IMG/VR virus record: IMGVR_UViG_3300005532_000245
Span: 1-49,595 of that record
Source: a virus
Reading direction: 5' to 3' (one strand)
DNA: 49,595 bases
Part shown: piece after piece, positions 23,521 to 46,824 of the stretch
Layout of the letters: each line of letters begins with the position of its first letter
Position numbering within the stretch: position 1 is the first letter of the stretch
The notes under the pieces: model-generated
Told to the model about the DNA's origin: nothing
Databases searched by the model: none
The model's input: only the letters and a program-made list of their open reading frames with translations
Program-made: the position numbers and the translations under genes

Positions 23521-25083
23521 CTACTCATTGATCGGGCGCATAAATGCCGCCGCCGCCGTGACTTGCTGCTGTGGCGTCATTTTTGCCGGGCTAATCAGGC
23601 CCATTTCGGTCGCGCGGCGTACCACCGTCGCCCTGTCCATGTCCTGCTCTGGCGCTCCCTGCTGAGGGTCGGTCGCCAGTCGCTTATCAGGCGCACGCAA
23701 GGCAGGCCCGCCGGGCGCTGGCTGCTTTGCCATGCGGCTTACCGTCTCCTGAATGCTCGTGAGTATCTTCGCGAGGTCAGGAAGTTGTGCGAGCAGGGCA
23801 AGTTGCGCCTGTAGCGGGGCAAGCGCACGCTCTACCGCTCCCTCGTCCGTGTGCAGGGCTTCCAGCGTGGTGACTGTGCCATTGCCTCCGAGCGTTGCGG
23901 CCATATCCCCTGCAATGGCCTGATAGCGGCTGAGAGCAGGGGCTAAGCGGCGTTCCACGGCTGCGACAACGCGCTCTGCCATGTCTTCTGCATCGTCATC
24001 GGGGTCAAGTTCACTATCTACGCCGGGTAAGTCCACATCGCCGTCGTTATCGGGGTCAAGGGCGGCAAGCATGGCCGCGCACTCGTCACAGGGACAGGCG
24101 GCGGTCATCTGGCGGGCGCTCATGAGGGCGGAGTCACGGGCAGCGTGCATCTGATTCATGCGATCAGCGGAGACAGCAGCGCCTGCGCGGGAAACGTCTT
24201 CTTGCGCCTCGGCACGCTCAGCAACTTCAGCCAGCACATCCGTATATGAGCCGTCGGCGCGCACGACCTCGATATTGCAACCAGGGGAGCCGGGAACATC
24301 CACCAGCGAGATTTCGGCATAATCGAAATCGTAATACATCGGCACGGTTTGGCCGTCGCGCTGCACGAGCTTGACCTTGTAGCCGGGTTTGAGCTTCACG
24401 GAAAAGCCGGTGAGAATGCCCTGCTCGATTTTTGCGCACGTATCCGGCGCGCCTGCACGAGAGACGCCCGCCTCTAAGATGATGCGCTTGTTGTCATTGT
24501 CAGGAATCCAGGTGATGCGCCGCCCGACCGCCTTTTTGTCGTCATGCTGCTCTCTGACGTTGCCCGGCCAACGCGCCATCGCTCGCTTGGAACTTTCGTA
24601 GTCGAAAATCGTCCTGTAACTGTCAACTGCGTCACTCGTGCATTGCCCGCGCACAACCAGCAGGCCGTCTTTATCAGCAGCTCGGGTAATCGGGAAATAC
24701 ATCTGCACGTCGCGGTCTGTGGCGGGAAGCCCTGCATCTACGCCCATCGTTCGCTCTCCTTTATCCTCTCCATCGTCCTGCTCTCCGAAAGAGCGTTGGC
24801 GCGCCTCGATACGCTTGCCGATAATGGCCTGCTCTTGCGCCGAATACTGCTCTCGGTTGGAAGCATCACCCCAGCGAGAGGCGGCGTTATCGGCGTGGGC
24901 TTTGTCTTTCATGGGGTAGCGGTAGTTCACGGGGTCTGCAAAGTCGTCATCAGGGACATCCGCAAATTCCGAGGGTTTCGTGACGGCCCCACCCGCTTTT
25001 ATGGCAATGCCGTATTTCTTTGCGCGCGCCTCTTGCGCCTGCTTCTCCGCATCGGCGGCGGCGCGGCTCACTTGCTTGCCCAT
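23521..25083 (-). CDS. prohead serine protease fused to scaffold-like C-terminus
   Basis: Start ATG 25083 after GGGAAGAGG; a TTG/ATG-like extension to 25107 is less likely. About 520 aa. Residues ~115-285 form an XkdF/U35-type protease: REQHDD (His), GILTGFSVKL (Ser in a GxS setting) and YAEISLVDVPGSPG. The rest is acidic and coiled-coil-like (CPCDECAAMLAALDPDND; LAPLQAQLALLAQLPDLAK), as expected for a scaffold released on maturation. It sits just before the capsid gene and behind tandem late promoters. Confidence 0.8.
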   Translation of the reverse strand: MGKQVSRAAADAEKQAQEARAKKYGIAIKAGGAVTKPSEFADVPDDDFADPVNYRYPMKDKAHADNAASRWGDASNREQYSAQEQAIIGKRIEARQRSFGEQDDGEDKGERTMGVDAGLPATDRDVQMYFPITRAADKDGLLVVRGQCTSDAVDSYRTIFDYESSKRAMARWPGNVREQHDDKKAVGRRITWIPDNDNKRIILEAGVSRAGAPDTCAKIEQGILTGFSVKLKPGYKVKLVQRDGQTVPMYYDFDYAEISLVDVPGSPGCNIEVVRADGSYTDVLAEVAERAEAQEDVSRAGAAVSADRMNQMHAARDSALMSARQMTAACPCDECAAMLAALDPDNDGDVDLPGVDSELDPDDDAEDMAERVVAAVERRLAPALSRYQAIAGDMAATLGGNGTVTTLEALHTDEGAVERALAPLQAQLALLAQLPDLAKILTSIQETVSRMAKQPAPGGPALRAPDKRLATDPQQGAPEQDMDRATVVRRATEMGLISPAKMTPQQQVTAAAAFMRPINE

Positions 25084-25116
25084 CCTCCTCTTCCCTTCCA
25101 ACCTCAACCAATGAAA

Positions 25117-26304: not shown

Positions 26305-26405
26305 CGTCTCCTCTCCTCTTCCATGGCCCATTCCAGCACCACCATTGCCAGCCCTGTGAGCAGTGGGACGAGGGTAAGGGTGAGCAGGAAAAGCAAGGTG
26401 GTCAT
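26301..26405 (-). CDS. tiny membrane protein, 34 aa
   Basis: ATG at 26405 overlaps the minor head protein stop (ATGA) and its TGA overlaps the next ATG. The product MTTLLFLLTLTLVPLLTGLA... is one membrane span with a charged EEERRR end. The chain of ATGA overlaps argues that it is translated. Role unknown. Confidence 0.5.
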   Translation of the reverse strand: MTTLLFLLTLTLVPLLTGLAMVVLEWAMEEERRR

Positions 26406-27094
26406 GATGTCACCATCTGGAGTTCGTGCTGGCAATTCGGATGAGCGGGAAAATCGGGAATGCTCGCCACTTCAGCAAGGCTGTAGGAATTGCCCGCGTA
26501 GTCTTTGCAAAAATCGCTACTGCTTTCTGATGGGACAACTTCCACCCGTATCCGTTCCAGATTGCTAGCCGTATCCTCATCAATGAGATCACCTACGTCC
26601 TCGTCTTCCTCGTCCGCTTCGCTCTCAGCAAGCACATCCTCGACAAATGCCCTGGTGCCGTCGTTTGCGCCCTTGCCCCATGTGGCGTTGGTGATTTGCG
26701 GGGCTTTCCAGGTGATGAATGCTTTCACGCCGCCACGTATGCCGTTTGCCAGCGCAATGGCGTTGATCGCCCCGCCTACGAGCGAATCGGCAAAAGCCCG
26801 TTCCTGTTCCGTCGAGGTGGCTATTTGCTCCTCAATAATGCTGCGCACGCGCTCCTCATAGGTACCCGCAATGCCCTCGACTTGCTCTTTTGCCCATTGC
26901 GTTGCCGCTTTCGCGTCCTGCTCTGAGGGCGTCCACGGCTTGTACAATCGTACAAGGTGTTGCGTCGTGGCTACCGCTTTCTGATACGCCTGCGCGCGGC
27001 TTTGCAGGTACGCCTCTGCGAGTAAGCGGGTGAGACGCTGCTTATCGTCGGGCGTGAAGGCGTAGGCAGCTACGAGAGCATCGAGACGAGACAT
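26402..27094 (-). CDS. minor head (capsid morphogenesis, gpF-like) protein
   Basis: Start 27094 overlaps the stop of the preceding gene (TAATG); upstream in-frame extension is unlikely. 230 aa. The C-terminal end carries FCKDYAGNSYSLAEV...PAHPNCQHEL, the classic Mu gpF / SPP1 gp7-like ending (C..C..G..y......P.HPnC.c), here with Gln-His in place of the last basic-Cys pair. Helical N-terminal half. It normally sits next to the portal and enters the head, as the position here also indicates. Confidence 0.8.
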   Translation of the reverse strand: MSRLDALVAAYAFTPDDKQRLTRLLAEAYLQSRAQAYQKAVATTQHLVRLYKPWTPSEQDAKAATQWAKEQVEGIAGTYEERVRSIIEEQIATSTEQERAFADSLVGGAINAIALANGIRGGVKAFITWKAPQITNATWGKGANDGTRAFVEDVLAESEADEEDEDVGDLIDEDTASNLERIRVEVVPSESSSDFCKDYAGNSYSLAEVASIPDFPAHPNCQHELQMVTS

Positions 27095-27282
27095 TATTTC
27101 TTGCCTATCTCGATACATGCCCCTAGAATGCCGATAAGCAGGACGATCAGGCCAATGATGTAGAATATCCATGCAACCGCAAGCGGGACGGGCGCAACTT
27201 TCGGAAAGCCAATCAACACAAGTCCGCAAAAGAGCAGTCCCATTGCTACCCCGAAGTTAGACAGGTCGTTGTGCTGTTTCAT
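27094..27282 (-). CDS. two-span membrane protein, 62 aa
   Basis: Two hydrophobic segments, GVAMGLLFCGLVLIGF and LAVAWIFYIIGLIVLLIGIL, separated by a short PKVAPVP turn; cytosolic basic end IEIGKK. Overlaps the portal stop (ATGA) and the minor head start. Unusual among head genes; role unknown, perhaps lysis or superinfection related. Confidence 0.65.
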   Translation of the reverse strand: MKQHNDLSNFGVAMGLLFCGLVLIGFPKVAPVPLAVAWIFYIIGLIVLLIGILGACIEIGKK

Positions 27283-29561
27283 GCAGAGTCATCCTCTCTC
27301 AGTTTCTGCTCACCCCGTCGCGCTACCTGCTCAAAAAGATCAGCGATACGTTGTGCCAACTCTTCACGGCTGGCAAAAGCCGCGTCTGCTGATCTGGCAA
27401 CACGCTCTTGCTGTAGTCCTATCGGGAAATCATAGTGCTGATTGCCGATAGCGAGTGTCAGCACATCAAAGACGAGCGGAAGCGCAGGTACATTATCAAT
27501 CGGCATGGGCGCGTCCTCTGGGATGTAGGCAAGGGTGATATGCGGCTGGTAGTCGAAGTCATTAGCCACGCCGTAGCCCGCCTGCTCCAACACGCTGACA
27601 AGTTCTCGTCGCCAGTCCTGAAGTCCGGGGCAATTGACGAGGGCAATCACCGGAGAGAGGCCATCAGAACTCTCAGATGCTGCGAACCGCCCGAACCCGC
27701 CTGTTTGCCCTTCCAGGGGATGCATCCGTTTTGCGAACAGGTCAAGTATCTGCACAATCATCTCTGGCGACTCAGCAGGGTTGCGCGTGCCTATCGGCTC
27801 ATCCGTGCTTCCCAGATAGGCCAGCGTGCAGTGCATCTCGCTGACAGGAAGTCCATCAGGCAAGGCTAACTGCTCTGCAACTTCAGGTTTGAGCATGAAT
27901 GCAATCATCATACCTGTCTCTGCATAAGTAGCAGCAACGCGCTCAGCACGCGCTACCCGTTCCTGTGTATCGCCCTGCCCCTCGTCGCCTGACTCATCCC
28001 CTGATTGCGCGCTCTCCGATTGTCCCTGCTCTGCCCCTGCTGTGTCGTCTGATTGCCCCTCGGATGTCTCTTCCGTGTCCGGTGTGCTATCCGGCGCATT
28101 CCCCTCTTCTGGCTTTGCGGGCTTCGCAGGTTGAGGCGGCGCGAGCAGGTTGTGCATCTGGGCAAGTTGCACTTCCTTGTTGGCAAGGTTGGCAATGACG
28201 AACGGGCCGGATTGCGTCATCACGAAGGCCGGGACCTCCACCTGCGTCGGCAGTTGCAACGCTTTGGCCGCGTCTGAGGGCGACTCAATGCCAGAGGTGA
28301 CGAGCGAGACGTGCGCAGCAGAGAGCGCGTTGAAATCTTGCGCCTCTTCATAGCCGCAAAACTCGAAGATGAAGCGCGGGTCGCCAATCACGTTCTTGAG
28401 GATGTGGGTGAAGAGGCGGCTAAACGTCTTTGCGGTGGGACGCACGGTGCGCCGAAACATCACGCCGCGCTGACTCTCGCCGGTTGAGCGATTCACGTCA
28501 TCGGTAAACGACAGATCAGCCATCGTCGTCCCGAAACTTCCGCAGGCCATGTTGAGCAGGAACTGATCGAAGTCAGTGAGGATGGGGTCCTCGTCAAACT
28601 TGGTGAATTTGGTGCCGGGAAGTCCCACGCGGGCCTGAGCGCGCTGGGCGTCATTGCCTGCGTACATGGCATTCCACATTTGCCGGTACGCCTCCAGGTC
28701 TGAGGGCGTCCAGCCCACGATATCACCGGGCACCTCGATAAAGCCTGCGGGCATGTTGCCATACGTGAAGCGGGCCATGTCACGCGCCTGCTTGCGGATG
28801 GCCATATTGACGCGCATGATGAAGTTCTCGACGCGCGAGAAGCCGTAGAGGCTATTAGAGCGGTGCGTCTCGCGCATGTAGATCATCTCATCGGCGGTGT
28901 ACTCGCCTGCGGGCGCGCCGTAGAGGTACTGCTCATAGGCGGGCCAGGGGGGTGAGGGGCGCTGGCCTCTGGCATCGACAAGCGGCTTGATCGTCGCGCC
29001 GTCCACCAGTTCCAGCGCGTAGAAATCCCCGTCGTTGGTTTTGTGAATGTACCAGGCGACGGCATCGATCTCCAACCGGTCACGCAGCGCGGCCTGACAG
29101 AGATCGAGAATATCGGTCACGCCGTCCGGCTTCTCGAACATAGCCTCGTACTTGAGGATATCATCAAGGTAGTCATCCTCGCTCTGCCCTTCCTTCAGCA
29201 GGTGCGGGCCTGGTACCACACGCGGCTCCAACCCCCGCCACACATCGTACCATGCTTGCTCACAGAGTTGGATAGCATCGTAGGAGACGGCGAGATCGCG
29301 CAGTTCGTCAAAGCTGGTGCGCTCGCCGATGCGCGGCTGCTGGTAGATGTTGATACCCGGCGTGTAGGGAAACAGACGCGGCGTCGGGCCAAAGAGCGGC
29401 GTCGGTAGCAGAGGAATGCCAGGGTTGAAGGCTTGATTGGCCGTGAAGGGGCTTTGCTGGATGCTATTGTTTTGCTGAACGGATGTCGCCTGCTGTTTGG
29501 TTGCGACATTTGGGCGTCGGTTTGTGTTGCCGCGCCCGCGTCCTCTGTTGCGTTTGCCCAT
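27279..29561 (-). CDS. portal protein fused to a 2H phosphoesterase domain
   Basis: ATG 29561 after GAGGGGAC. About 760 aa. Residues ~60-480 match siphovirus portal proteins (ELRDLAVSYDAIQLCEQAWYD; DEMIYMRETHRSNSLYGFSR; SFGTTMADLSF). A Glu/Asp/Ser/Gly-rich linker follows, then a domain with two H-x-T motifs, HCTLAYLG near 575 and PHITLAYI near 675, the signature of the 2H (2'-5' RNA ligase / cyclic phosphodiesterase) superfamily. The portal forms the dodecameric DNA gate. The fused 2H domain could hydrolyse 2'-5' or cyclic nucleotide bonds. Confidence 0.85.
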   Translation of the reverse strand: MGKRNRGRGRGNTNRRPNVATKQQATSVQQNNSIQQSPFTANQAFNPGIPLLPTPLFGPTPRLFPYTPGINIYQQPRIGERTSFDELRDLAVSYDAIQLCEQAWYDVWRGLEPRVVPGPHLLKEGQSEDDYLDDILKYEAMFEKPDGVTDILDLCQAALRDRLEIDAVAWYIHKTNDGDFYALELVDGATIKPLVDARGQRPSPPWPAYEQYLYGAPAGEYTADEMIYMRETHRSNSLYGFSRVENFIMRVNMAIRKQARDMARFTYGNMPAGFIEVPGDIVGWTPSDLEAYRQMWNAMYAGNDAQRAQARVGLPGTKFTKFDEDPILTDFDQFLLNMACGSFGTTMADLSFTDDVNRSTGESQRGVMFRRTVRPTAKTFSRLFTHILKNVIGDPRFIFEFCGYEEAQDFNALSAAHVSLVTSGIESPSDAAKALQLPTQVEVPAFVMTQSGPFVIANLANKEVQLAQMHNLLAPPQPAKPAKPEEGNAPDSTPDTEETSEGQSDDTAGAEQGQSESAQSGDESGDEGQGDTQERVARAERVAATYAETGMMIAFMLKPEVAEQLALPDGLPVSEMHCTLAYLGSTDEPIGTRNPAESPEMIVQILDLFAKRMHPLEGQTGGFGRFAASESSDGLSPVIALVNCPGLQDWRRELVSVLEQAGYGVANDFDYQPHITLAYIPEDAPMPIDNVPALPLVFDVLTLAIGNQHYDFPIGLQQERVARSADAAFASREELAQRIADLFEQVARRGEQKLREDDSA

Positions 29562-29605: not shown

Positions 29606-29670
29606 GGGGTGCATAATAGAGAGGTAGGTGTTGACATAGCCCCATGCGCAGGTGGGTGAAAACGGCGCAA

Positions 29671-29700
29671 GCCTCTCAAGGTGTAGGAGAGGCATTTTTA
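29671..29700. terminator. hairpin after the large terminase gene
   Basis: GCCTCTC (29671-29677) pairs with GAGAGGC (29687-29693), followed on the forward strand by ATTTTTA. The U-run orientation suits forward transcription; in the leftward direction it is only a hairpin directly after the terminase stop. Confidence 0.45.
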
Positions 29701-31059
29701 TGCCGCCTGATTGCCCTGCTGCAACTGACTATATTCGCGCATAAAGTCAAGATAGGACGCTGCCGATTGACGCGGGGAAGCGGCGGCAAAGTAGGCCAGG
29801 GCCAGACTAATCACGGCGTCATCGTGCGCGCCTTTGGGGGCTGAGTAGGTGAGTTGACGGCCCGGTGTCAACTGGTATTCAAAGATACGCAGTTCGTTCA
29901 GCAGCACAGGAATGTCAGGAAACGAGAGATCACGGTTCTGAATACCGAGTTGCAACTTTTCGATGAGTGCCTTTTTGCTGGCATGGGTGAACAGGTAGCC
30001 CTCTGCCGTGAAACCACGCTTCCTCTTCAACGCCTCAAGGAGCGGATCACCGACGCCGGTCATATCCATCAGCACAAAGGCATGGAACTGGACGGCAAGC
30101 TTAGAGAGCATCTCGAGTTGCACAGTGTAGTCGATCTGGTTGGAGCGATACCAGCGCCTGACCACACGGCGCGCCGTCGCGTCCATGAGCGTGATGACGC
30201 TGAAATCTTTGTACTTGGCCGGGTCAAAGCCGATAACGTATTGATGGCCCGCCTCTGGCTGGTAGTTCTCATCCAATACACCACTGATGCAGGCATCAAC
30301 CCCTTTGAAGACGCCGGCGCCGTGTTCCAGAAACTCTGCCTCATATTCCTGCTGGTAGGCGTCCTCCGGCAGTTCCTGCTTTGCCGCCTCAATCGCTGAG
30401 CGCAGGATATACGGGTTGTCAGACGTGCGGGCATGAAAGCTTGCCCACTCTGGATATGCCGGGTCATCGCCTCGGATGAAAAGCTGGTAGAAGAGGTTAC
30501 GGCCTTTGGGGGTACCAATGATGAGGGCGCGGCCATTGGTGTCAGTGAGGGCGGCATAAATTGCATCCGTCCAGACTTTCGGGTCGTGCAGCGCGTCGCC
30601 CGCCTCGTCCACGACAAAGAAATGGTAGCCCTCGCCACGTATCGAATCAGCGTTATCGGCGCTGAAGAACTGGATGATGGAGCCGTTGGCAAACTCAAGG
30701 CGTAAGTCGCTGTCGCTCTTGCGCACGATGACGCCCTGCGATTTTGCAAAGGCGCGCCGGATGAAGCGATAGGCAATCTTGCTCTGGCGAAACCAGGGCG
30801 CAACCCAGCCACAGTTGCTGTTCGGGTGATCTAACGCGAACTTGACGATCTCATTGCAAGCCATGAGCGTCTTGCCGTAGCGACGCCCACAGGCCACGAC
30901 GCGAAAACGCTTCTTACTCTTGTGGATTTTCCACTGGCCGCGATGAGGCTGATAGAGAGTGATCTTGCCTTTACGGACAGGCGGGGGTTGCTTCTTGCCG
31001 ACGAATGGGGGAAGCGCGGCAAAGAGGAGAAGAAACCAGAGGGCGAGAGGCGCAAACAT
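29698..31059 (-). CDS. terL: terminase large subunit
   Basis: 453 aa. ATPase Walker A CGRRYGKT near residue 57-64, Walker B FFVVDEAG near 150, coupling motif GTPKGRN near 180; nuclease acidic residues in IGFDPAKYKDFSV, MDMTGVGD and HDDAVISLALA. It cuts and pumps DNA into the prohead. The start overlaps the small-subunit stop (TAATG). Odd feature: residues 2-20 (FAPLALWFLLLFAALPPFV) form a hydrophobic, membrane-like stretch not expected in TerL. Confidence 0.92.
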   Translation of the reverse strand: MFAPLALWFLLLFAALPPFVGKKQPPPVRKGKITLYQPHRGQWKIHKSKKRFRVVACGRRYGKTLMACNEIVKFALDHPNSNCGWVAPWFRQSKIAYRFIRRAFAKSQGVIVRKSDSDLRLEFANGSIIQFFSADNADSIRGEGYHFFVVDEAGDALHDPKVWTDAIYAALTDTNGRALIIGTPKGRNLFYQLFIRGDDPAYPEWASFHARTSDNPYILRSAIEAAKQELPEDAYQQEYEAEFLEHGAGVFKGVDACISGVLDENYQPEAGHQYVIGFDPAKYKDFSVITLMDATARRVVRRWYRSNQIDYTVQLEMLSKLAVQFHAFVLMDMTGVGDPLLEALKRKRGFTAEGYLFTHASKKALIEKLQLGIQNRDLSFPDIPVLLNELRIFEYQLTPGRQLTYSAPKGAHDDAVISLALAYFAAASPRQSAASYLDFMREYSQLQQGNQAA

Positions 31060-31634
31060 TAGCCCTCTTCCTCGTCGCCCTTATCCGGTAGCATGCCGCC
31101 GCCCCATTCAGTGACGAACTCGATAGGGCCACCATCTTTGCCGGTGTGTTCGTTGGAGACGCGCTCTTTGTACTTTTCTGGCATATTGGCCTTCAGGAGC
31201 GTGATGAGGACTGACGGCGCATACTTGCGCTCTATGATCGGCTCTGTTCGGGTGAAGATAACGCGCCCGTCTTTGTCGAGTTTCGGATTGCCATGCTCAT
31301 CAAGTACCGGCTTCTCTTTATAGACAATATGCCCCTGACTCACCACGTAGGAAGGAATGCCCTCAACCGCTTGTGAGTAGGCGGCGTATTCGAGGGTATC
31401 GTTACGATCTTCCTCAGCATCAGGCAGTTGCGCGGCAAACTCAGGGTCGTTATCACGCCAGTTCTTGAAGGTTTGGCGCGAAATACCCGCCGCTTTACAG
31501 GCCACCTTGACGACGCCGTGCTTGCCTAACGCCCTCAGAAACGTCACTTGCTTCTTTTTGCGTTGCTCAGGCGTAAGGGGCTTATATTTGGCATTAAGGG
31601 CGTCAATCTTGTCAATGTCCTGCTCGTCCGCCAC
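31059..31634 (-). CDS. terS: terminase small subunit
   Basis: GTG start after GAGGTGAGCGC. 191 aa with an N-terminal helix-turn-helix ([21 protein letters not shown]), the DNA-recognition domain of small terminases, an oligomerisation helix with [10 protein letters not shown], and a C-terminal [17 protein letters not shown] segment found in phage TerS. It selects packaging sites and is coupled to terL. A late-type promoter lies 150 bases upstream. Confidence 0.85.
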
Positions 31635-31660
31635 GCGCTCACCTCACCTCATGCTCATCC

Positions 31661-31714
31661 CGCGACAAACAAAAAGCAGCACAGGACTTGCCCATGCCAC
31701 TTCTGCTTGTCGCG
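31661..31714 (-). promoter_or_regulatory. long leader hairpin of the terminase operon
   Basis: Reverse strand CGCGACAA (31714-31707) pairs with TTGTCGCG (31668-31661); inside, GCAG/CTGC adds four pairs and the second arm contains a TTTTTGT bulge. GCAG...CTGC plus TTTTTG could alternatively act as a terminator, so the leader could switch between two folds. Confidence 0.5.
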
Positions 31715-31786
31715 TTCGCACCGACGCCCTCGCCTCTCACTCCGCCTCAACCCTTGCCACCTCACCACAGACGAGCCGTGGTGCTA

Positions 31787-31801
31787 TCAACAGTATAGCA
31801 A
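31787..31801 (-). promoter_or_regulatory. late-type promoter, terminase operon
   Basis: Reverse strand TTGCTATACTGTTGA, followed by a CACCAC/GTGGTG hairpin. It drives terS and terL and lies about 165 bp from the divergent sigma gene start. Confidence 0.75.
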
Positions 31802-31964
31802 GCGACGGAAAACGTTCCTGAGAGAGATAAGAAAGATGAAGATTTTGGCATGCTTCCTGAGCAATCTCAATCATATCTCAACCTGCTATCCCTTCCGCAA
31901 CTTTTGCGATACAATACAATCGGTGGAGGAAAGCCGCTTGACGGCGACGTTGACGGGAGGAAAT

Positions 31965-32885
31965 ATGCCACGCACTGCTGTAAAGAAAACGCAACCTGCT
32001 GATGATCTCTCTGCTGATGAAGAGGCTTTAGAAAAAGTTGAACCCCGCTTTGATCGCGCACTCGATACCTACCTTCGTGAAATCAGCAGCCATCCTCTGC
32101 TTTCTGCCTCTGAAGAGGTGGCGCTGGCTATCCGTATTGAAGCGGGCGACGAGGGCGCAAAACGGCGCATGATCGAATGCAATCTCCGCTTAGTGGTCTC
32201 CATTGCCAAACGCTATTTCTCCGCGCTCGTCGGCATGACCTCGCTTGATCTCATCCAGGAGGGTAATCTTGGCCTGATACGCGCTGTGGAGAAGTTTGAT
32301 TACCGGCGCGGCTATCGCTTTTCCACGTATGCGACCTGGTGGATACGGCAGGCCGTGCAGCGCGCAATGGGGGAGAGCCAGCGCACCATCCGGCTGCCCG
32401 TGCATATTGCCGAGGAAGTGGTCGCCTTGCGCCGTGCGCAGACGCGCCTCTTTGTGCAACTTGGGCATGAGCCGGGCGTAGCAGAGTTGGCCCTGGCCCT
32501 GAAGATGAGCGTGGCGCATGTGCGTGACCTGCTGGACTGGCAAGAGGATGCCGTGTCGCTGGATGCGCCCATTGCAGAGAGCGAGGATGGCTTCTCTTTC
32601 GCCGATATCATCGAGGACAGGGCAAGCGCGCCGCCTGATAGCCTGAGTCAGCAGAGCGAATTGCAGGCCCTGATAGCCGCCGCGCTTACCCACCTCGTAC
32701 CACGTGAACGGCAAATAGTTGAGATGCGATTCGGGCTTTCGGGCCGCGACAGTTGCACACTGGAAGAGGTAGCAGAGGTATTCGATCTGACGAAAGAGCG
32801 CATTCGCCAGATCGAGGTCAGGGCGCTACAGCGTGTCCGGCAACTGCTGGGCATGAGAGCAGTTGAGTTGATGGAGAGCGCGTAG
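31965..32885 (+). CDS. phage-encoded RNA polymerase sigma-70 factor (RpoD/SigA-like, group 2)
   Basis: Start ATG 31965 after GGGAGGAAAT; upstream frame is non-coding. 306 aa. Region 1.2 [18 protein letters not shown]; region 2 [31 protein letters not shown] and [14 protein letters not shown] (-10 recognition); region 3 [13 protein letters not shown]; region 4 [14 protein letters not shown] and [20 protein letters not shown] (-35 recognition). It directs RNA polymerase to promoters. Small phage sigmas are usually divergent; this one is close to host primary sigma. A TACAATACAAT -10-like stretch lies at 31910-31920. Flanked by a terminator downstream. Confidence 0.93.
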
Positions 32886-38075: not shown

Positions 38076-38233
38076 CCGAGTGCCACTGGCCTGACGAAAT
38101 GTCGCTCCATATGCTCAGCATCAAAATGGCAGAGACAGGTTTCGTGCTGACAAAATGGGCGTTCGTCGGTATGTTCCACCTGTGGCGTAACCCAGTGTGC
38201 CCAGATGGGAACAATCACAAAATGCTCACTCAT
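38003..38233 (-). CDS. hypothetical Cys/His protein, 76 aa
   Basis: GGAGATCGC before ATG 38233, which overlaps the preceding stop (ATGA). Contains HTDERPFCQHETCLCHF, a possible metal site, and a helical C-terminus (LGQLTIGEALARYG). Last gene of the leftward replication/modification operon. Function unknown. Confidence 0.65.
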   Translation of the reverse strand: MSEHFVIVPIWAHWVTPQVEHTDERPFCQHETCLCHFDAEHMERHFVRPVALGQLTIGEALARYGSSVVPRETVLR

Positions 38234-39426
38234 GCGATCTCCTCCAGCATCAGCGGCTGCACAACACCATTGCGATACACCTGCTCTACCAACCGATCAG
38301 CTCGTATCTCGCTGCCTGTCCATCCGTCCGGCCAGGTATCCGCTTCCATCAATTCGAGAATACGAACGCGCTCTTCCTCGTTGATGAGATCAATCTCTGG
38401 CCTGCCTTGTGCCCGTGCCGCACTGTTTACCTCGTCCTGGATCGCCAACACGACAGAGAGGCCGTAGCGACGTGCTTCCATCGTGTACGGCCCCATACGC
38501 ATTGGATTGGCCGAAAGACTCCCGTCTTTCTTGCGCTCTCCGACCTGCCTGAGTCGATAGTGCGGTTTGACCAGTTCGCGGTAGAGCGGTTTCAATCGTC
38601 TGAGCGGTTCGAGGTACGCCCATTGCGGTTGCCTGAGAATGGTTTCTAGCGCCACATCCTTTGAAGCGAGATTGCAACCAACGCAACCTGTGCGAGCGTT
38701 GATTTCTAGCGCCTCATCCCCGCCGTAAGCCTCTGCTACCAACTGTGTTGAGAAAGCGTGTTGCGGGGCAAAGAAGGTCAGCCAATCCCACACATGGCAG
38801 ACCCGCCAGTGCAGGAGCGGCGCAAGCACGTCAGCGACAGAATCCGGCGTACTGGCCTGAAACCAGCCTTGCCCACATTCCGCGCCATCGCGGCTACAGG
38901 AGAGCGCAATGCGCTGATCGCGAGCAGCCGACTCACCAACACGTACCCCTGTCAGCATGAGCAGCTTGCCGTACTGCTCTCTCAGGGCTTGCAATGCTGC
39001 TTCCATCGGCTCTACCTTCAATTGTGGTGTACACCAGCGAAAGCGGTTCTTAGGTGCTGGCACACCACGCCCGAACAGATACACGAAAAAGCGGTCATCC
39101 AGAGCAGGAAGGACAATCTGCGTCTTGACGCCTTTCGCTCCCAATTCTCGCAAGATCGTTATGGCGGTGGCATGGAGCGGTGGAAGTTCCATGCGCGTAT
39201 CGGCATAAAGCACGGTCAGGCTTTCGGGCGCTGGTATCTGGCCTGTTTCGATGAGATGTGTGGCCAGTGTGACCGTAGCCGTTGAGTCCTTCCCTCCTGA
39301 GTAGGCAATAGCCCAATGTCGATATAGTGAGCCGTACATTTGCAGGCTCTCTATTGTCAAGGCAATGCTCTTTTCCATCGTCAAGCGGTCGCTCTCCCAG
39401 AGGCTGATCTGTTGCTTATTCATCAT
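38230..39426 (-). CDS. DndC/PAPS-reductase-like PP-loop protein
   Basis: 398 aa. PP-loop AYSGGKDST near residue 42-50 (ATP-pyrophosphatase), YADTRME, RFRWCTPQLKVEP near 130, GVRVGESAARDQR near 165 and GCVGCNL near 247. This set matches the adenylating PP-loop/4Fe-4S family that holds PAPS reductases and DndC, the sulfur-transfer enzyme of DNA phosphorothioation. Shorter than typical DndC (~500). Phage members are common but their reactions are often unproved; here it sits with DNA-modification genes. No dndB, D or E in the window. Confidence 0.75.
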   Translation of the reverse strand: MMNKQQISLWESDRLTMEKSIALTIESLQMYGSLYRHWAIAYSGGKDSTATVTLATHLIETGQIPAPESLTVLYADTRMELPPLHATAITILRELGAKGVKTQIVLPALDDRFFVYLFGRGVPAPKNRFRWCTPQLKVEPMEAALQALREQYGKLLMLTGVRVGESAARDQRIALSCSRDGAECGQGWFQASTPDSVADVLAPLLHWRVCHVWDWLTFFAPQHAFSTQLVAEAYGGDEALEINARTGCVGCNLASKDVALETILRQPQWAYLEPLRRLKPLYRELVKPHYRLRQVGERKKDGSLSANPMRMGPYTMEARRYGLSVVLAIQDEVNSAARAQGRPEIDLINEEERVRILELMEADTWPDGWTGSEIRADRLVEQVYRNGVVQPLMLEEIA

Positions 39427-40550: not shown

Positions 40551-41387
40551 TTAGAACATCAGTGCTTGTTTTGGCACTGACAGAGCCTGTTCAACTTTTG
40601 CCTGATAGCGCGGCAAGGCCACATCGAATATCCAGCGCCGCTGTGGAAGCCCGCTTGACTTCCATTCGTTTCTGCCTGTCCTGAAAAGGCCGTTCCACGC
40701 CGCGCTATCAACGCTCTTCACACACTCAGGCAGGGCAACCGGCGCTTGCAACGCCCCTAACTTAATACCCCAGAGGTGCAGGGGAACGCCGGGTAGTTCA
40801 CGGGAAACTGCGTTGACGACCTCATGGATCATGGCAACACTTGCTCGTCGGCACAGCGTTCCTATGCCCACTCTAAACGCGCTAAGCGGGCCGTAGAATG
40901 CCTGCATTTCCTCGATAAGCGGGCGCATCTCTCTGGCATGGCGCACGTAATCCGCAACTTCCCATCCCTGAATGGTGGGTACCCAGACCCACGAGGCATA
41001 GCGAAAGAGCGTCCAGAAGGTGTGTGCCATTTCCGTTGTCAGGTACTGCCGTTTGCGCACGATGCCGGGCGCGCCTGCGGTGATCTCGTCTTCACAGCAG
41101 TAGTCCATCGTCGCCGCCCATTGCGGCTGCCAGCCTTCCAGCCACTCGACATACTGTTCAGGCGTGTAGCGATACCCACCCCATTTGAACGTACTCACAA
41201 AGCCACCGCAGTCAGCAGCCCGCTCAACCGTCATTTCTGAGAGATGCGGCTGTGGCAAGGCACTGCGTACCATGCCGTACTTGCGTACCTCGTCAGCGGC
41301 AAAGGATGAGGCGACGAGCAGGATACGCGGGATAGCACAGTAGCGATTCACCTCGCCACGTGAAACAGTGGGATAGAACGTCAACAT
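40551..41387 (-). CDS. DpdA-like (TGT-family) DNA deazaguanine transglycosylase
   Basis: 278 aa. Motifs of the DpdA/tRNA-guanine transglycosylase-like phage family in order: FKWGGYRYTPEQY, ATMDYCCED near 92-100, VPTIQGW, FRVGIGTLCRR near 165-175, LHLWGIK and SVDSAAWN near 225. The Asp in MDY and in SVDS are the likely catalytic residues. This family exchanges guanine in DNA for a 7-deazaguanine such as preQ0, protecting phage DNA from restriction. No preQ0 biosynthesis gene is in the window, so host precursor would be needed. Confidence 0.78.
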   Translation of the reverse strand: MLTFYPTVSRGEVNRYCAIPRILLVASSFAADEVRKYGMVRSALPQPHLSEMTVERAADCGGFVSTFKWGGYRYTPEQYVEWLEGWQPQWAATMDYCCEDEITAGAPGIVRKRQYLTTEMAHTFWTLFRYASWVWVPTIQGWEVADYVRHAREMRPLIEEMQAFYGPLSAFRVGIGTLCRRASVAMIHEVVNAVSRELPGVPLHLWGIKLGALQAPVALPECVKSVDSAAWNGLFRTGRNEWKSSGLPQRRWIFDVALPRYQAKVEQALSVPKQALMF

Positions 41388-41399
41388 CGTCGCACCCCC

Positions 41400-43004
41400 T
41401 TATCCTTGCACTGCTACCGGCTCTGGATGGGCCGGGTAGAACTCGTCTGACATGTCATAATCGGGATCATCGAAGCTGGAGATATGCCGCGTTGGCTTGC
41501 TGCTGAACGCTATCACCTTCTCAGGCGGGCTTTCAGGGCCACGTGCCGCCTCATCCAGTTGGTGTTGCATCGCACTCTGCCATGCCTCGAAATCACGTTC
41601 GAGGTCGTAGAGTTGCACTCCCTTACGGCTAAAAAAGCCGTTGCGATTGTTGCACTGGAATTCCCACCCTTTGTAGCCGCGCAAGACTTCCCGCCGGTCA
41701 ACGCCCAGCAGACCAGCCCAGATCGTGAGCGGCTCCGCAAGGAACTTTGCCGCCCTTGCCATCGAGGCCGTGAGCTTCACCGGCACGTGGAAGAGGCTGC
41801 ACCACTCGCGGTAGAGCAGCATCTCATCCTCAGAGAGCGTCGCCTCAAGCGGGATGTCCACTGGCTTTGCGGGCTTTGGTGGCCGCTCTGGCTTTGCCGG
41901 TTTCTCTTTGGGTGACTTGCGCGCTCGTCCGCCTCGACGCGGCGGCATCTCGGACGTGGCAGGATGGGAAGCACCAGCCAGGGGGGATACCACGTCGGTA
42001 CGGTGAGATGCCGCCACAGGGTCAGGCAGTGATAGGGAGTCCACCGCCGTCGCCTGAAGATGGGTGTCTGCTATGGATTCCGACTCGCTGCTTTCGCCAG
42101 GGCCAGCATGAGCAGCAACGTGCATAGGACATACAGCAGGAGAATCAACCACATTGGCATGGTCATCTCCTCTCACATCCGTTTTCGGAACATCGGCCCC
42201 ACAATCAGGAAGCCGATCAGGAACAGCAACAGGAACCACAGGAGCAACCAGAGCATCGTTTTGTCCTTTCTCCGACTTATCCACAGAGGATGTGGATAAG
42301 TGAGACGATGTATCATTTTCTGCTTCTGGGGATAGTCCCTCGTCAAAAGCAGAGAAATTTTCCCATTGAAGAGATTGCGCAGGGGCGGCGGGTGGGTGAT
42401 CTGCGATAGCAGCATCACCCTTCCCCTCTTCTTGTGAATCTGTAATATCTTCGTAATCTATGTAATCTATAGGGGGCATTTCTGAGCGTGAAACTGAAAC
42501 GCTCCCGTTCGTAGTTGGAACAGTAGCGTTCGTATATGAAACGCTACTGTTCACATACGGAACACTCTCATCATAAGAAGTGTTCGTATATGAAACGCTC
42601 TTGCGTTTTTCACAGTAGGCAAGGTTATCTTGCCAGATGCGAGCGTAGTCAATCGAGATATAGGTTTGCGCCTGCTTACAGGGCTGCCCTGTAAGTGGAT
42701 TAATGGCCTTGCGTAGTTCCAACCGCAAGTAGCCCGTGACGCGCACAATCCGCTCTAAAATGCCTTCATGAGGCTTGCCCGCCTTCTTATCGATAAAGGA
42801 TGAGAGCAGGGAGATCGGTACACCGGAAAGCGCGGCAATCTCCCGATAGGAGAGCCGATGGGGGCCGCTTCCCCAGTAACGGCCCATAATGGAGAGCAGC
42901 ACCCATTTATCATCTCTGCTCAAATCGGGAATCCCATAGATCAGGTGTACCGGAAACTGGACAAATTGCCCCTTGCCCTCTTGCCTTTGTTCTTGTTGCG
43001 TCAT
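41400..43004 (-). CDS. replication initiator, lambda-O-like layout with internal origin
   Basis: 534 aa. N-terminal winged-helix (FPVHLIYGIPDLSRDDKWVLLSI; LSYREIAALSGVPISLLSSF), a Ser/Tyr/Asn-rich repeat region at residues ~135-175 that is encoded by 21-bp iterons, a long disordered linker (Pro/Ala/Lys) and a C-terminal helical domain (EDEMLLYREWCSLFHVPVKL...RREVLRGYKGWEFQCNNRNGFF). Initiators of this design bind iterons within their own gene and recruit the helicase loader. The start overlaps the Dcm stop (TAATG). Confidence 0.8.
   Translation of the reverse strand: MTQQEQRQEGKGQFVQFPVHLIYGIPDLSRDDKWVLLSIMGRYWGSGPHRLSYREIAALSGVPISLLSSFIDKKAGKPHEGILERIVRVTGYLRLELRKAINPLTGQPCKQAQTYISIDYARIWQDNLAYCEKRKSVSYTNTSYDESVPYVNSSVSYTNATVPTTNGSVSVSRSEMPPIDYIDYEDITDSQEEGKGDAAIADHPPAAPAQSLQWENFSAFDEGLSPEAENDTSSHLSTSSVDKSEKGQNDALVAPVVPVAVPDRLPDCGADVPKTDVRGDDHANVVDSPAVCPMHVAAHAGPGESSESESIADTHLQATAVDSLSLPDPVAASHRTDVVSPLAGASHPATSEMPPRRGGRARKSPKEKPAKPERPPKPAKPVDIPLEATLSEDEMLLYREWCSLFHVPVKLTASMARAAKFLAEPLTIWAGLLGVDRREVLRGYKGWEFQCNNRNGFFSRKGVQLYDLERDFEAWQSAMQHQLDEAARGPESPPEKVIAFSSKPTRHISSFDDPDYDMSDEFYPAHPEPVAVQG
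42430..42471. other. AT-rich putative unwinding region of the phage origin
   Basis: A stretch with tandem GTAATCTAT repeats (TAATATCTTCGTAATCTATG...) lies directly next to the iteron array, on the side downstream of the initiator coding direction. This is the lambda ori arrangement (iterons then AT-rich element). Confidence 0.55.
42484..42599. repeat. origin iterons: five 21-bp dyad repeats inside the initiator gene
   Basis: Units at 42484-42504, 42504-42524, 42525-42545, 42546-42566 and 42579-42599, mostly on an exact 21-bp pitch (two helical turns, seven codons). Consensus AGYGTTCGTATATGAAACGCT with inverted symmetry (AGCGTT...AACGCT); the fifth is offset by 12 bp. They produce repeats such as SVSYTN in the protein. 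Expected binding sites for the initiator encoded around them. Confidence 0.8.
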
Positions 43005-44050
43005 TATGCCACCCTCCCATCATCTTCCATCTCAACTGCTGCCATGATGCATCTGCCAACGTACTCAGCAACTTGTGGGACTACGGCGTTTCCGAGTCCT
43101 CTAAGTCGCTCCACCCGATGGGAAACCCCATGAGCCACTCGACGAACTCCGGGTTCAGTTGCCCACTGGCCTGCCCCTGTGCTGCAATCTCGCGCAAAGG
43201 TCGCGAGTTCTTCTGCATCGTCTCTTCCGAAGACTTGCCCGAACGCCAATCGCGAGCGATTGGCGTTGGATACATTTGTACTGCATCGTTGAGATTGACG
43301 CTCCATCCCTGTTGCATCTTGCGTTGCATGCGCGGCGAATCCGGTGAGTCTCCACTGCGGTAATCGCGTGATTGCGGCGTCGGCCAATGATGAATCGCCC
43401 CGCTCAGTGCATATCTTCCCTTGCTGTTCGGCCCCCCGTGACTCCCATCTGTTGCTCGTGGGGTCGGAAGCAGGCCCTTCTTTGCCATGCGTGCCAGTGT
43501 TGGCCTGACTGGCGAGGTGGGGGTACTCCTGTTCGTGCTGCCGCCCGTCGCGTCGGTCGCAACCGGGGTAGGCAACAATGAAAACTCTTTCCCGGATATG
43601 CGGCGCACCAAAGGCCGCAGCGGGTAACACCTGCCACTGCGCATCGTACCCGCACGAGGCCAGGTCTGCGAGTACGGTGTCAATTCCCCGGTAAAGGAGA
43701 GCTGCGACGTTTTCCACAAGAACGAATCGGGGTCGAAGCTCGCAAATGATGCGGAAAAACTCTTTCCAGAGTCCCGACCGTTCTCCGGTGATACCGACGC
43801 GCTTTCCGGCTGCGCTAATGTCCTGGCAGGGAAAACCCCCGGCCACGAGATCAACAGGGGTAAGGTTATGCTTTCCGCAGTCTCGCACGTCTCGAAACCG
43901 GGCAACATCGGGCCAGTGTTTTGCAAGGATTTTTTGGGCATAGTCGTCTATCTCCACCTGCCATGCGCAACGCATACCAGCACGCTCCAAACCGAGATCA
44001 ATACCGCCGATTCCAGCGAAAAGAGAGCCGAATGTGAGCGGTGTGTTCAT
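43004..44050 (-). CDS. C5-cytosine DNA methyltransferase (Dcm-like)
   Basis: 348 aa. Motif I FGSLFAGIGGIDLGLERAG, motif IV GGFPCQDIS with catalytic Cys near 78, motif VI VLVENV, motif VIII QWQVLPAAAFGAPHIRERVF and motif X RLRGLGNAVVP are all intact. The central target-recognition part carries repeats like ADAAITRL and SNANRSRL. It methylates cytosine in a host-like site, presumably to protect phage DNA. Coupled to both neighbours by overlaps. A second long gene is read from the same DNA in the +1 frame. Confidence 0.9.
   Translation of the reverse strand: MNTPLTFGSLFAGIGGIDLGLERAGMRCAWQVEIDDYAQKILAKHWPDVARFRDVRDCGKHNLTPVDLVAGGFPCQDISAAGKRVGITGERSGLWKEFFRIICELRPRFVLVENVAALLYRGIDTVLADLASCGYDAQWQVLPAAAFGAPHIRERVFIVAYPGCDRRDGRQHEQEYPHLASQANTGTHGKEGPASDPTSNRWESRGAEQQGKICTERGDSSLADAAITRLPQWRLTGFAAHATQDATGMERQSQRCSTNVSNANRSRLAFGQVFGRDDAEELATFARDCSTGAGQWATEPGVRRVAHGVSHRVERLRGLGNAVVPQVAEYVGRCIMAAVEMEDDGRVA
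43081..43941 (-). CDS. overlapping gene within dcm (PTPxAxD-repeat protein), 286 aa
   Basis: Open for 286 codons in the +1 frame of the Dcm gene, same strand. It is not a random frame: it contains TWPRAGTMRSGRCYPL, four units of (L/W/Y)PTPxAxD type (LPTPVATDATGG, LPTPRATDGSHGG, WPTPQSRDYRSG, YPTPIARDWRSG) and ends LNPEFVEWLMGFPIGW. To my memory this set of motifs also occurs in stand-alone phage proteins next to Dcm genes. Function unknown; it may be a Dcm partner or a second recognition protein. Translation start is uncertain. Confidence 0.6.
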   Translation of the reverse strand: MPKKSLQNTGPMLPGFETCETAESITLPLLISWPGVFPARTLAQPESASVSPENGRDSGKSFSASFASFDPDSFLWKTSQLSFTGELTPYSQTWPRAGTMRSGRCYPLRPLVRRISGKEFSLLPTPVATDATGGSTNRSTPTSPVRPTLARMAKKGLLPTPRATDGSHGGPNSKGRYALSGAIHHWPTPQSRDYRSGDSPDSPRMQRKMQQGWSVNLNDAVQMYPTPIARDWRSGKSSEETMQKNSRPLREIAAQGQASGQLNPEFVEWLMGFPIGWSDLEDSETP

Positions 44051-46494
44051 GCCACCACCTCGCTCTCTTCCATCTCATCAAACAACGTCGCCTGTGTCTT
44101 CTGCGCAGCTATCTTTTCAAGATTGCGCCGGGCAACCTGAAAGTAGGATTCTTTCAGTTCTACTCCTACGAATTTGCGATCCAGGCGCAACGCCTCGTAC
44201 CCCTCGCTTCCGATTCCGGCAAAAGGAGAAAAGACGACTTCACCCGGATTCGTCCAGAGTTGCACGGCCCGTGCAACGACATCTAACTGTAAAGGGCATA
44301 TATGTTTCTCGTCCTGGCTTTCGCGAGCCTGATCTACGTTGAGTACCCGTGTCTGGCGAATATCAAACCAGACAGGAGAGGCATACCGTTGCCAGATGTC
44401 CAACGGGAAATCTTCTTTCGTGTGCGTGACTGGCACGATACCCGCCTCTTCCTGCTCATCTCGCGGCCATTTCCTGAAGATGAGCAGGTACTCCGGCATG
44501 CCTTGCCGTGAGTAGGTGCTATCAGCGCGTAACTGCTTATACAGCAGGCCGTGTGCCTTTGTGCGCTGCATCTCGATTACAGGGTCTTTCCAGATGACCA
44601 CCTTCGAATGATATTGCCAGCCAGCCGCGCCAAAATGCCGGATGATTTCCCCTGAGAAGTCGCGCAGGCCAGCCGCGCCGTCACGGCCCTTGTAGTTCAC
44701 GAGGTCTTTACAATGCACTGCACAGAGTCGCCCTGGCATGGTGATGCGCAAAAGTTCGGGGATGAGGAAATCAAAGTGCTGGAAAAACTCGTCATCGTCT
44801 GCTGAGTTGCCCATATCCTCTATGGCATCTGAATAAATGTAGAGACTGGAAAAAGGCGGACTGAAGATGCTGAAGTGAATGCTGTTCTCAGGAAGCGCGC
44901 GAGATACCGCTACACAATCGCCATGATAGAGCGTCCAGTCCCGGCCCCGCTCACTGCTGAAGGTTTCATGGCGCACGAGTTGCCTGCTCTCTTCTAAGGC
45001 CAGCCGCGCCGTCGTGGCATTCATGGCGTCGCTCATTGCCAGATGGGCGCGTGTTTTGCGCTCCAATGTGGTCACGAGCGTGCTTTCCGTCTCTGCTGCG
45101 ATAATGGTGATCTCGACAGGGAAGTGTTGGCCGAAACGGTAGATGCGCCGGATAGCCTGATACACGTCCTCAAAGCTGTAGGAGAGGCCGACAAACACTG
45201 CTTTGTGACAGTGTTGCCAGTTGAGGCCGTAGCCACACTGAGACGGCTTGGCAATGATGACGCGGGCCTGGCCTGTCGAGAACAGGGTGAGTTTGCGCTC
45301 CTTTTCGGCAAGGCTATCCGAGCCGCGTACCTCGATAGCATCTGGGATACGCGCCTTCAGTTCGTCGGCTTCGTAGTTGGTATTACACCAGACAACCCAT
45401 ATCTCTTTTTTCTTGAGTTGGATAGCATGCTGCTTGATCTGAACGCTTGTCCAGACTTCAAAGCCGTTCGGGTTCTGTGGCGTCGTGACTGACCAGAGTA
45501 CCTTTCCGGCCTCTTCAGCGCGATAGGCTTGTGGCGTCGGCTCCAACTCATAGCCCAGAGAGGTCAGGTACATGCGAGCTTCCACAAAGTCCATTTCATC
45601 GCCGCCATTCACCAGATCAGCGACGGCTTGCGCCCGATCAGCGACGGTCAGGCGCATCTCTTTATGCAAGTTCGTGGCACTCATGGCGGGCGCACGGAAT
45701 AATTGCCCCTCTTCAGCCCCTACCGTGATATCGGTTTCGACATAGCGATGCTGGATTACCAGCTCTGGCAACACGAACCCCTCATCGCTATATCCGAGAT
45801 CAGACGGCTTTCTGAGAGAGATAGCCCATGACGCAACCCATTGCCAGAAGTCCCGCTCTGCATGCCCTTTCAGGCGGTAGTGACCGCTCTGCATCGTGTC
45901 GTTGATGAACCATCTCATCAGCATTTCGCTGGAAGGCATGATACCCAGGAATTCGGCGTGGTTGCCGATCTCCATAACGTCATTCGGGGCGGGCGTGGCT
46001 GTGCAGCAAAGGCGGTAGGGCGTGTTCGCGAACGCTTCCACCAGGGCGCGCTTCGTCTTGCCCATATAGGACTTTAAGATAGATGATTCGTCCAGAATAA
46101 CGCCGATAAAATGACTTGCATCGAAATGAGCAAGCATCTCATAATTGGTGATATTGATGCCGGGCTGCACGTCCTCTTGAGAGCGACAGATTGTGACCGC
46201 ACTATCCAGCTTTGCGCCCTCGCTGACAGTTTGCGCGGCAACGGCAAGCGGGGCAAGGATGAGGATGTCTCTGCCCGTGTGCGCGTATACCTGCTTTCCC
46301 CATTCCAGTTGACAGAAAGTTTTGCCAAGCCCGCAATCTGCGAACAGCGCGGCCCGCCCTTTTCTCAGCGCCCACTGCACGAGCGCCTTCTGAAACGGAA
46401 ACAACTTCTCGTGCAGCGCCTCTTGCGCAACCTCGATCCCACTGGACGAGGCAGTCGCCCGCTTACTCATAAGAAATTCCTGATAATCTTGCAT
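44047..46494 (-). CDS. SNF2-family helicase fused to an N-type DNA methyltransferase
   Basis: Start ATG 46494 with GGAAAGGGGATAT; the frame to 46767 is an unlikely extension. 815 aa. Residues ~25-560: SF2 helicase with Walker A FADCGLGKT, DEAS-like VILDESSILK, SAT-like CTATPAPND and QAIRRIYRFGQ motif VI. Residues ~590-815: methyltransferase with FSPPFSSLY (motif IV, SPPF) before FSPFAGIGSEGYEAL (motif I), the beta-class order, likely N6-adenine or N4-cytosine. One polypeptide that translocates and modifies DNA. Confidence 0.85.
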   Translation of the reverse strand: MQDYQEFLMSKRATASSSGIEVAQEALHEKLFPFQKALVQWALRKGRAALFADCGLGKTFCQLEWGKQVYAHTGRDILILAPLAVAAQTVSEGAKLDSAVTICRSQEDVQPGINITNYEMLAHFDASHFIGVILDESSILKSYMGKTKRALVEAFANTPYRLCCTATPAPNDVMEIGNHAEFLGIMPSSEMLMRWFINDTMQSGHYRLKGHAERDFWQWVASWAISLRKPSDLGYSDEGFVLPELVIQHRYVETDITVGAEEGQLFRAPAMSATNLHKEMRLTVADRAQAVADLVNGGDEMDFVEARMYLTSLGYELEPTPQAYRAEEAGKVLWSVTTPQNPNGFEVWTSVQIKQHAIQLKKKEIWVVWCNTNYEADELKARIPDAIEVRGSDSLAEKERKLTLFSTGQARVIIAKPSQCGYGLNWQHCHKAVFVGLSYSFEDVYQAIRRIYRFGQHFPVEITIIAAETESTLVTTLERKTRAHLAMSDAMNATTARLALEESRQLVRHETFSSERGRDWTLYHGDCVAVSRALPENSIHFSIFSPPFSSLYIYSDAIEDMGNSADDDEFFQHFDFLIPELLRITMPGRLCAVHCKDLVNYKGRDGAAGLRDFSGEIIRHFGAAGWQYHSKVVIWKDPVIEMQRTKAHGLLYKQLRADSTYSRQGMPEYLLIFRKWPRDEQEEAGIVPVTHTKEDFPLDIWQRYASPVWFDIRQTRVLNVDQARESQDEKHICPLQLDVVARAVQLWTNPGEVVFSPFAGIGSEGYEALRLDRKFVGVELKESYFQVARRNLEKIAAQKTQATLFDEMEESEVVA

Positions 46495-46824
46495 ATATCC
46501 CCTTTCCAGCCGCCCTATGCCACTTCCTGCCTGTTTTGAGGTCTTGCAATTCCTCTCGATATCAGGCATAATTGACACAAGGTGGCACGGTTTGCGGACA
46601 GATGACCCGTCGTTTCTCAGGCTACAGGTTATCTGTTCCGTTGCCACTGAGAGAGCCAATTCTCTCTCAAAATAGGTGTTCACTCGCGCGCCCTCCGCTT
46701 CATCCCACATATCCCACTTGCCAATAATCCATCGAATTGCTATACTCGTCTCAGGAGAGCGGCGCATCGATGCAGAGTTTCCCCTTTGCTGATGCTGACT
46801 CTCCTGATGCCCTTCGCCTTCTTG
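46495..46824. other. non-coding gap with structured elements
   Basis: No credible gene. Contains a TGAGAGAG/CTCTCTCA hairpin (46648-46669), a forward TTGCTATACT extended -10 at 46734-46743 that resembles the late promoter core but points the other way, and an inverted repeat TCAGGAGAG (46751-46759) / CTCTCCTGA (46799-46807) around the end of the DnaQ-like gene. A promoter for the helicase gene is expected here but none is convincing. Confidence 0.5.

Follow-up and report, generated by a model that had tools for sequence, protein, structure and literature searches.

The C-terminus of a phage portal protein raises a question when it carries an enzyme of the 2H phosphoesterase type: what would such a domain act on, and where would it meet its substrate? 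We addressed this question in a viral DNA of 49,595 nucleotides (IMG/VR record IMGVR_UViG_3300005532_000245, positions 1 to 49,595), which is referred to as the window. A single open reading frame on the minus strand encodes a portal, an acidic linker and a 2H phosphoesterase domain (Table 1), bearing out the architecture that the initial annotation had proposed. With a probability of about one half, we propose an active 2H phosphodiesterase at the C-terminus, which would be carried as portal-borne cargo, released by a protease, and directed at a phosphodiester signal or end of host defence.

Table 1. Features of the portal-2H gene and of the neighbouring head genes, in window coordinates.
Feature	Position	Strand	Details
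Terminase small subunit	31059..31634	-	phrog_4044, E 1.3e-25
Terminase large subunit	29698..31059	-	phrog_2, E 4e-44
Portal-2H fusion gene	27279..29561	-	760 aa; ORF calling, PHROG, Pfam; stop ends at 27279
Portal core	28251..29306	-	residues 86-437 (760-aa numbering); phrog_2662, PF04860; folded in full-length model
Acidic linker, disordered	27921..28250	-	residues 438-547; pLDDT <50 in full-length model; net charge -14
2H phosphoesterase domain	27417..27920	-	residues 548-715; AlphaFold2, Foldseek, VIA
First catalytic motif, HCT	27825..27833	-	residues 577-579; H and T invariant in three alignments of relatives (A1, A2, A3)
Second catalytic motif, HIT	27534..27542	-	residues 674-676; conserved in relatives
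Helical tail at C-terminus	27285..27413	-	residues 717-759; DSSP of full-length model, low to moderate confidence
Possible MuF-like minor head protein, label unproven	26402..27229	-	275 aa; C-terminal FCKDYAGN..FPAHPNCQHEL by eye
Head maturation protease gene, putative release factor	23521..25107	-	phrog_9427, E 4e-14

Translation from the ATG at 29561, which is preceded by AGAGGGG, gives the 760-residue protein, and an alternative upstream ATG at 29645 would give 788 residues. The portal part matches the PHROG portal family phrog_2662 (E 1e-35) and PF04860 in Pfam (E 8.5e-11; 42 bits, above the gathering cutoff of 39.1), which at the sequence level makes it an HK97-type portal. The gene comes directly after the terminase genes (29698–31634), and the head maturation protease gene is located farther downstream. 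Since the full-length model reached a pLDDT of only 62, the portal geometry was not read from it. An internal start producing a free 2H domain is unsupported: an ATG ATG pair in frame immediately precedes the domain (about 27909–27914), and the nearest AGG stands only 1–2 bases ahead of it, which leaves too little spacing for a good ribosome-binding site.

Elsewhere in the window, a full sigma-70 factor (regions 1.2, 2, 3 and 4) is encoded at 31548–32885 on the plus strand, opposite to the head genes, with a likely start within the ORF at about 31962. A DpdA-like (deoxypurine in DNA) protein at 40551–41387 (minus strand) suggests phage DNA with modified bases. At 43004–46767 (minus strand), a C5-cytosine methyltransferase adjoins a 906-aa protein in which an SNF2-type helicase is joined to an N6/N4 DNA methyltransferase. 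Close to these DNA-modification genes, a PAPS-reductase-like protein (PF01507) is encoded at 38230–39426 (minus strand). PADLOC returned no match.

By sequence, the 2H domain matches phrog_14859, annotated as 'RNA ligase' (E 7e-24), and PF13563 (2_5_RNA_ligase2) with 31.4 bits, above the gathering cutoff of 27. A phmmer sequence search against the PDB yielded nothing useful, and a fold search was therefore used. The AlphaFold2 model, for which other viral contigs supplied 64 related domains, has a pLDDT of 91.4 and a pTM of 0.84 and predicts an internally duplicated 2H fold. The HxT motifs are located at the starts of strands (model residues 36–44 and 133–140), as expected for this fold. Foldseek gave 35 PDB matches at E <= 0.001 with 2H phosphoesterases at the top; the first were the Deinococcus CPDase (drCPDase, E 6e-8), archaeal 2'-5' RNA-ligase-like proteins and E. 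coli LigT. The initial annotation had read a 2H enzyme from two HxT motifs spaced about 100 residues apart, and both the predicted fold and the conservation of the HxT residues in relatives agree with it.

Within the superfamily, the domain appears nearer to the LigT/CPDase enzymes than to Acb1. The best structural matches are the 2',3'-CPDase of D. radiodurans (5h7e; VIA-align Z of 17.4) and E. coli LigT (5ldm; about 15), which possess the two HxT motifs as well. These are cellular standalone enzymes rather than virion proteins and are about 20% identical to the window domain, which scores 13.5 bits against the LigT RNA 2',3'-cyclic phosphodiesterase equivalog (NCBIfam TIGR02258), far under its cutoff of 65.7. 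Acb1 (T4, FBB1) shares with the window domain the 2H superfamily, both catalytic motifs and a phage origin; however, it is a free protein, whereas the window domain is fused to a portal. Its Z is 10.6, compared with 15–17 for the LigT-type enzymes, a value lowered by the shorter length of Acb1, and the fold is common to both. The domain scores 21.4 bits against the Acb1 family PF23474, below the gathering cutoff of 27. The superfamily link to the anti-CBASS protein Acb1 of T4 that had been suggested is borne out, and membership in Acb1 itself is not supported. In terms of the models, the proximity to LigT/CPDase and archaeal 2'-5' RNA-ligase-like folds instead of Acb1 counts against the counter-defence reading.

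These nearest folds, LigT, drCPDase and related cyclic phosphodiesterases, would also suit RNA-end healing: where tRNA-cutting nucleases of the host have produced 2',3'-cyclic phosphate ends, the domain would open these so that other enzymes can religate them. Such a role has been assigned to jumbo-phage 2H enzymes (PMC7824862). We nevertheless regard it as unlikely here. No RNA ligase, polynucleotide kinase or KptA was found among the window proteins scanned, which cover part of the window ORFs, and a complete RNA-repair pathway is therefore not evident. Repair has no obvious gain from attachment to a portal. Besides, according to the passages of Iyer et al. (2017) considered here, such phage 2H domains were never seen linked to RNA ligases (PMC5512222). 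The suggestion in the initial annotation of a counter-defence or RNA-repair role thus survives as a reasonable class of function, one already proposed for portal- and MuF-fused 2H domains in the parts of two earlier studies used here (PMC5512222, PMC9503650), but without an evident repair pathway around it.

Which proteins carry this domain in other viruses bears on the preferred reading, a portal-borne and protease-released enzyme. Searches for related loci that started from the entire portal protein or from just its 2H domain retrieved none or two, so an alignment of relatives was used instead; the resulting profile scan of viral contigs found 327 relatives, of which 80 were kept. The 2H domain occurs at the C-terminus of portals from three groups: phrog_12/2662 (the window and loci L016, L017, L019, L025, L036, L058, L079, L085 and L100), phrog_113 (L054, L056) and phrog_64/104 (L028, L064, L075). 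PHROG and Pfam scans identified MuF proteins and head maturation proteases, including the XkdF type (PF14550), as other fusion partners, and the domain is also fused on the N-terminal side of major capsid proteins (PF05065, PF25209). In a tree of 97 2H domains, the portal label takes at least 9 changes, 3 of which are forced by well-supported branches.

In named phages, the domain is encoded by its own gene, immediately behind the portal gene or in its vicinity (Bixzunavirus gp95, Rhodococcus phage E3 gp74, Brevibacterium phage Cantare gp9, Bendigovirus gp25) or between the MuF-type and capsid genes (Wizardvirus gp19, Laroyevirus gp18), or lies within MuF or head-protease proteins (Woodruffvirus, Lilbeanievirus). 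An unfused PF04860 portal is located within 5.5 kb of the 2H gene in 14 of the 16 records with a detectable one, by distances derived from the contig ranges, a figure weakened by several records being short fragments. The frequent 'RNA ligase' annotation of the actinophage 2H proteins is likely misleading.

Several architectures deserve a separate description. In L019, L025, L016, L017 and L100, a portal, a 2H domain and a MuF-type C-terminus form one polypeptide with 2H at the junction; L100, with its portal-2H-MuF fusion, is from an Anaerolineae genome. The window protein stops after 2H, and its MuF part may have been split off into the next larger gene. The product of 26402–27229 has no match in Pfam or PHROG, and its hhalign comparison with the fused MuF tails of relatives was not significant (E 0.077). 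The 2H domain is N-terminal in capsid polyproteins (Phage_capsid or Phage_capsid_4) at L071:5908-9282, L095:5986-8688, L084:5824-8622, L074:5872-8862 and L055:4828-8604. Such fusions could put hundreds of copies in each procapsid, and they are absent from the passages of Iyer et al. (2017, 2022) considered here. The protein at L043:5680-7794 unites 2H with both an XkdF-type head protease and a PI3/PI4-kinase-like domain. Other loci display 2H fused with an ADP-ribosyltransferase (ART; L113:4998-7598), with a Zeta toxin (L030:5671-7347 and L047:1587-6266) or with a histidine phosphatase domain (L018:1198-4566). Effector domains beside 2H, namely ART, Zeta toxin and histidine phosphatase, fit the expected pattern of effectors delivered by the virion.

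The ART and Zeta toxin domains in the same polypeptides as 2H relatives are also what an RNase effector could predict, namely an injected host-takeover enzyme that cuts host RNA like Usb1. Usb1 structures match the domain at a Z of about 14, and the idea appears in the part of Iyer et al. (2017) drawn on here, where portal- and MuF-fused PBECR RNase domains serve as the analogy (PMC5512222). LigT/CPDase folds, however, match as well or better, and we consider this explanation distinctly unlikely.

The preferred reading, an active phosphodiesterase in the head, further depends on catalysis. A distance of 97 residues separates the HCT and HIT motifs. When the protein was shuffled 20,000 times, a pair of loose H.[ST] motifs spaced 80–120 residues apart arose in 4.5% of the shuffles, and a pair of the H.T.x[YF] form in none. 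Among 12 diverse 2H domains (the other eleven being 21–37% identical to that of the window), H, T, H and T are the only invariant columns. Extending the comparison to 65 domains, both histidines, the first threonine and two tyrosines are invariant, and the second threonine is present at 90% or more. The first HxT motif belonged to the search pattern for the contig loci, so its conservation there is biased and only the second motif counts as independent. In 113 related domains, the histidine of this second motif is conserved in all 113 and T/S in 111, with a cysteine in the remaining two; L018 and L020 carry HxC in place of HxT. The dN/dS of the 2H domain is 0.10–0.25 in seven close pairs, indicating purifying selection. 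Because the second motif is conserved though it played no part in choosing the relatives and dN/dS is low, the domain is very likely catalytically active, and from sequence and model together we judge it almost certainly a working enzyme. That the domain is a structural or assembly module, which binds in packaging or in forming the portal ring and whose catalysis is incidental, is highly improbable: 2H does occur mostly with head-assembly proteins, but in portal, protease, MuF and capsid fusions alike no positions are better conserved than the catalytic residues, which binding would not require, and in several phages the domain is a separate small protein.

How, then, could an active 2H phosphodiesterase on the portal reach its target? 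The portal C-terminus points into the capsid interior, so up to 12 copies of the domain are expected in the head. The fusion partners lie inside the capsid or undergo processing as the head matures, in keeping with virion cargo. Given so many partners of this kind, head cargo best explains a domain joined to portal, MuF, head protease and the N-terminal extension of capsid proteins. Because the window encodes a long tape-measure protein, it belongs to a tailed phage, and the portal of such a phage is expected to remain outside the cell, together with any 2H enzyme still attached to it. The earlier statement that it would be present from the moment of DNA entry consequently needs qualification, as the domain must be cut free and pass the tail. 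With the portal expected to stay with the capsid, intracellular action needs a release step, and the head protease encoded nearby could perform it. We speculate that this protease cuts the acidic linker and that the freed domain of about 20 kDa passes the tail and enters the cell with the DNA. There it may hydrolyse cyclic or 2'-5' oligonucleotides made by defence systems, or RNA ends with a 2',3'-cyclic phosphate, and thereby blunt nucleotide-signalled defence. Phage Acb1 and the LigT-like 2H enzymes of avian poxviruses degrade cGAMP (PMC11410667, PMC12064943).

On the other hand, the freed domain might work on assembly-stage complexes. Defence systems sense assembly proteins, and by analogy action at the assembly site is therefore a plausible second route. 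The SPbeta protein YonE is presumably the portal protein of that phage. SpbK is described as interacting with YonE (PMC12847820), and an interaction between a CBASS sensor and a prohead protease has been documented (PMC12409349). A broader idea, which we hold tentatively and think rather unlikely, is that 2H is a general procapsid cargo module, repeatedly attached to portal C-termini, MuF, head proteases and major capsid proteins, of which the maturation protease would free many copies. Delivered by the virion or acting at the assembly site, it would erase nucleotide signals before any phage gene expression.

T4 Alt is a known injected protein. Like MuF-ART, it is an enzyme in the head or fused to head proteins that is delivered at infection; their chemistry is ADP-ribosylation, and injection of the window 2H domain is only proposed. 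Iyer et al. (2017) reported fusions of 2H with MuF or portal and suggested that the domain acts as an RNase or degrades immune nucleotides (PMC5512222), and Iyer et al. (2022) took the portal and MuF fusions to suggest packaging and injection against nucleotide-signalled immunity (PMC9503650), in the passages used here. The window protein shares with these fusions the architecture class, the catalytic motifs and the proposed packaging and delivery. It is a further example of this published kind rather than a new system, and the passages do not name it. New here are the spread over three portal families, proteases and capsid proteins, which those passages do not state, the domain model, and the placement nearer to LigT/CPDase than to Acb1.

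The same domain is present in cultured actinophages (Laroyevirus gp18, Wizardvirus gp19, the Woodruffvirus MuF and Lilbeanievirus gp16), which allow direct testing. Should release and injection of the domain occur, the phage would bring into the cell a ready-made enzyme against nucleotide-signalled or RNA-cutting defences, without gene expression.
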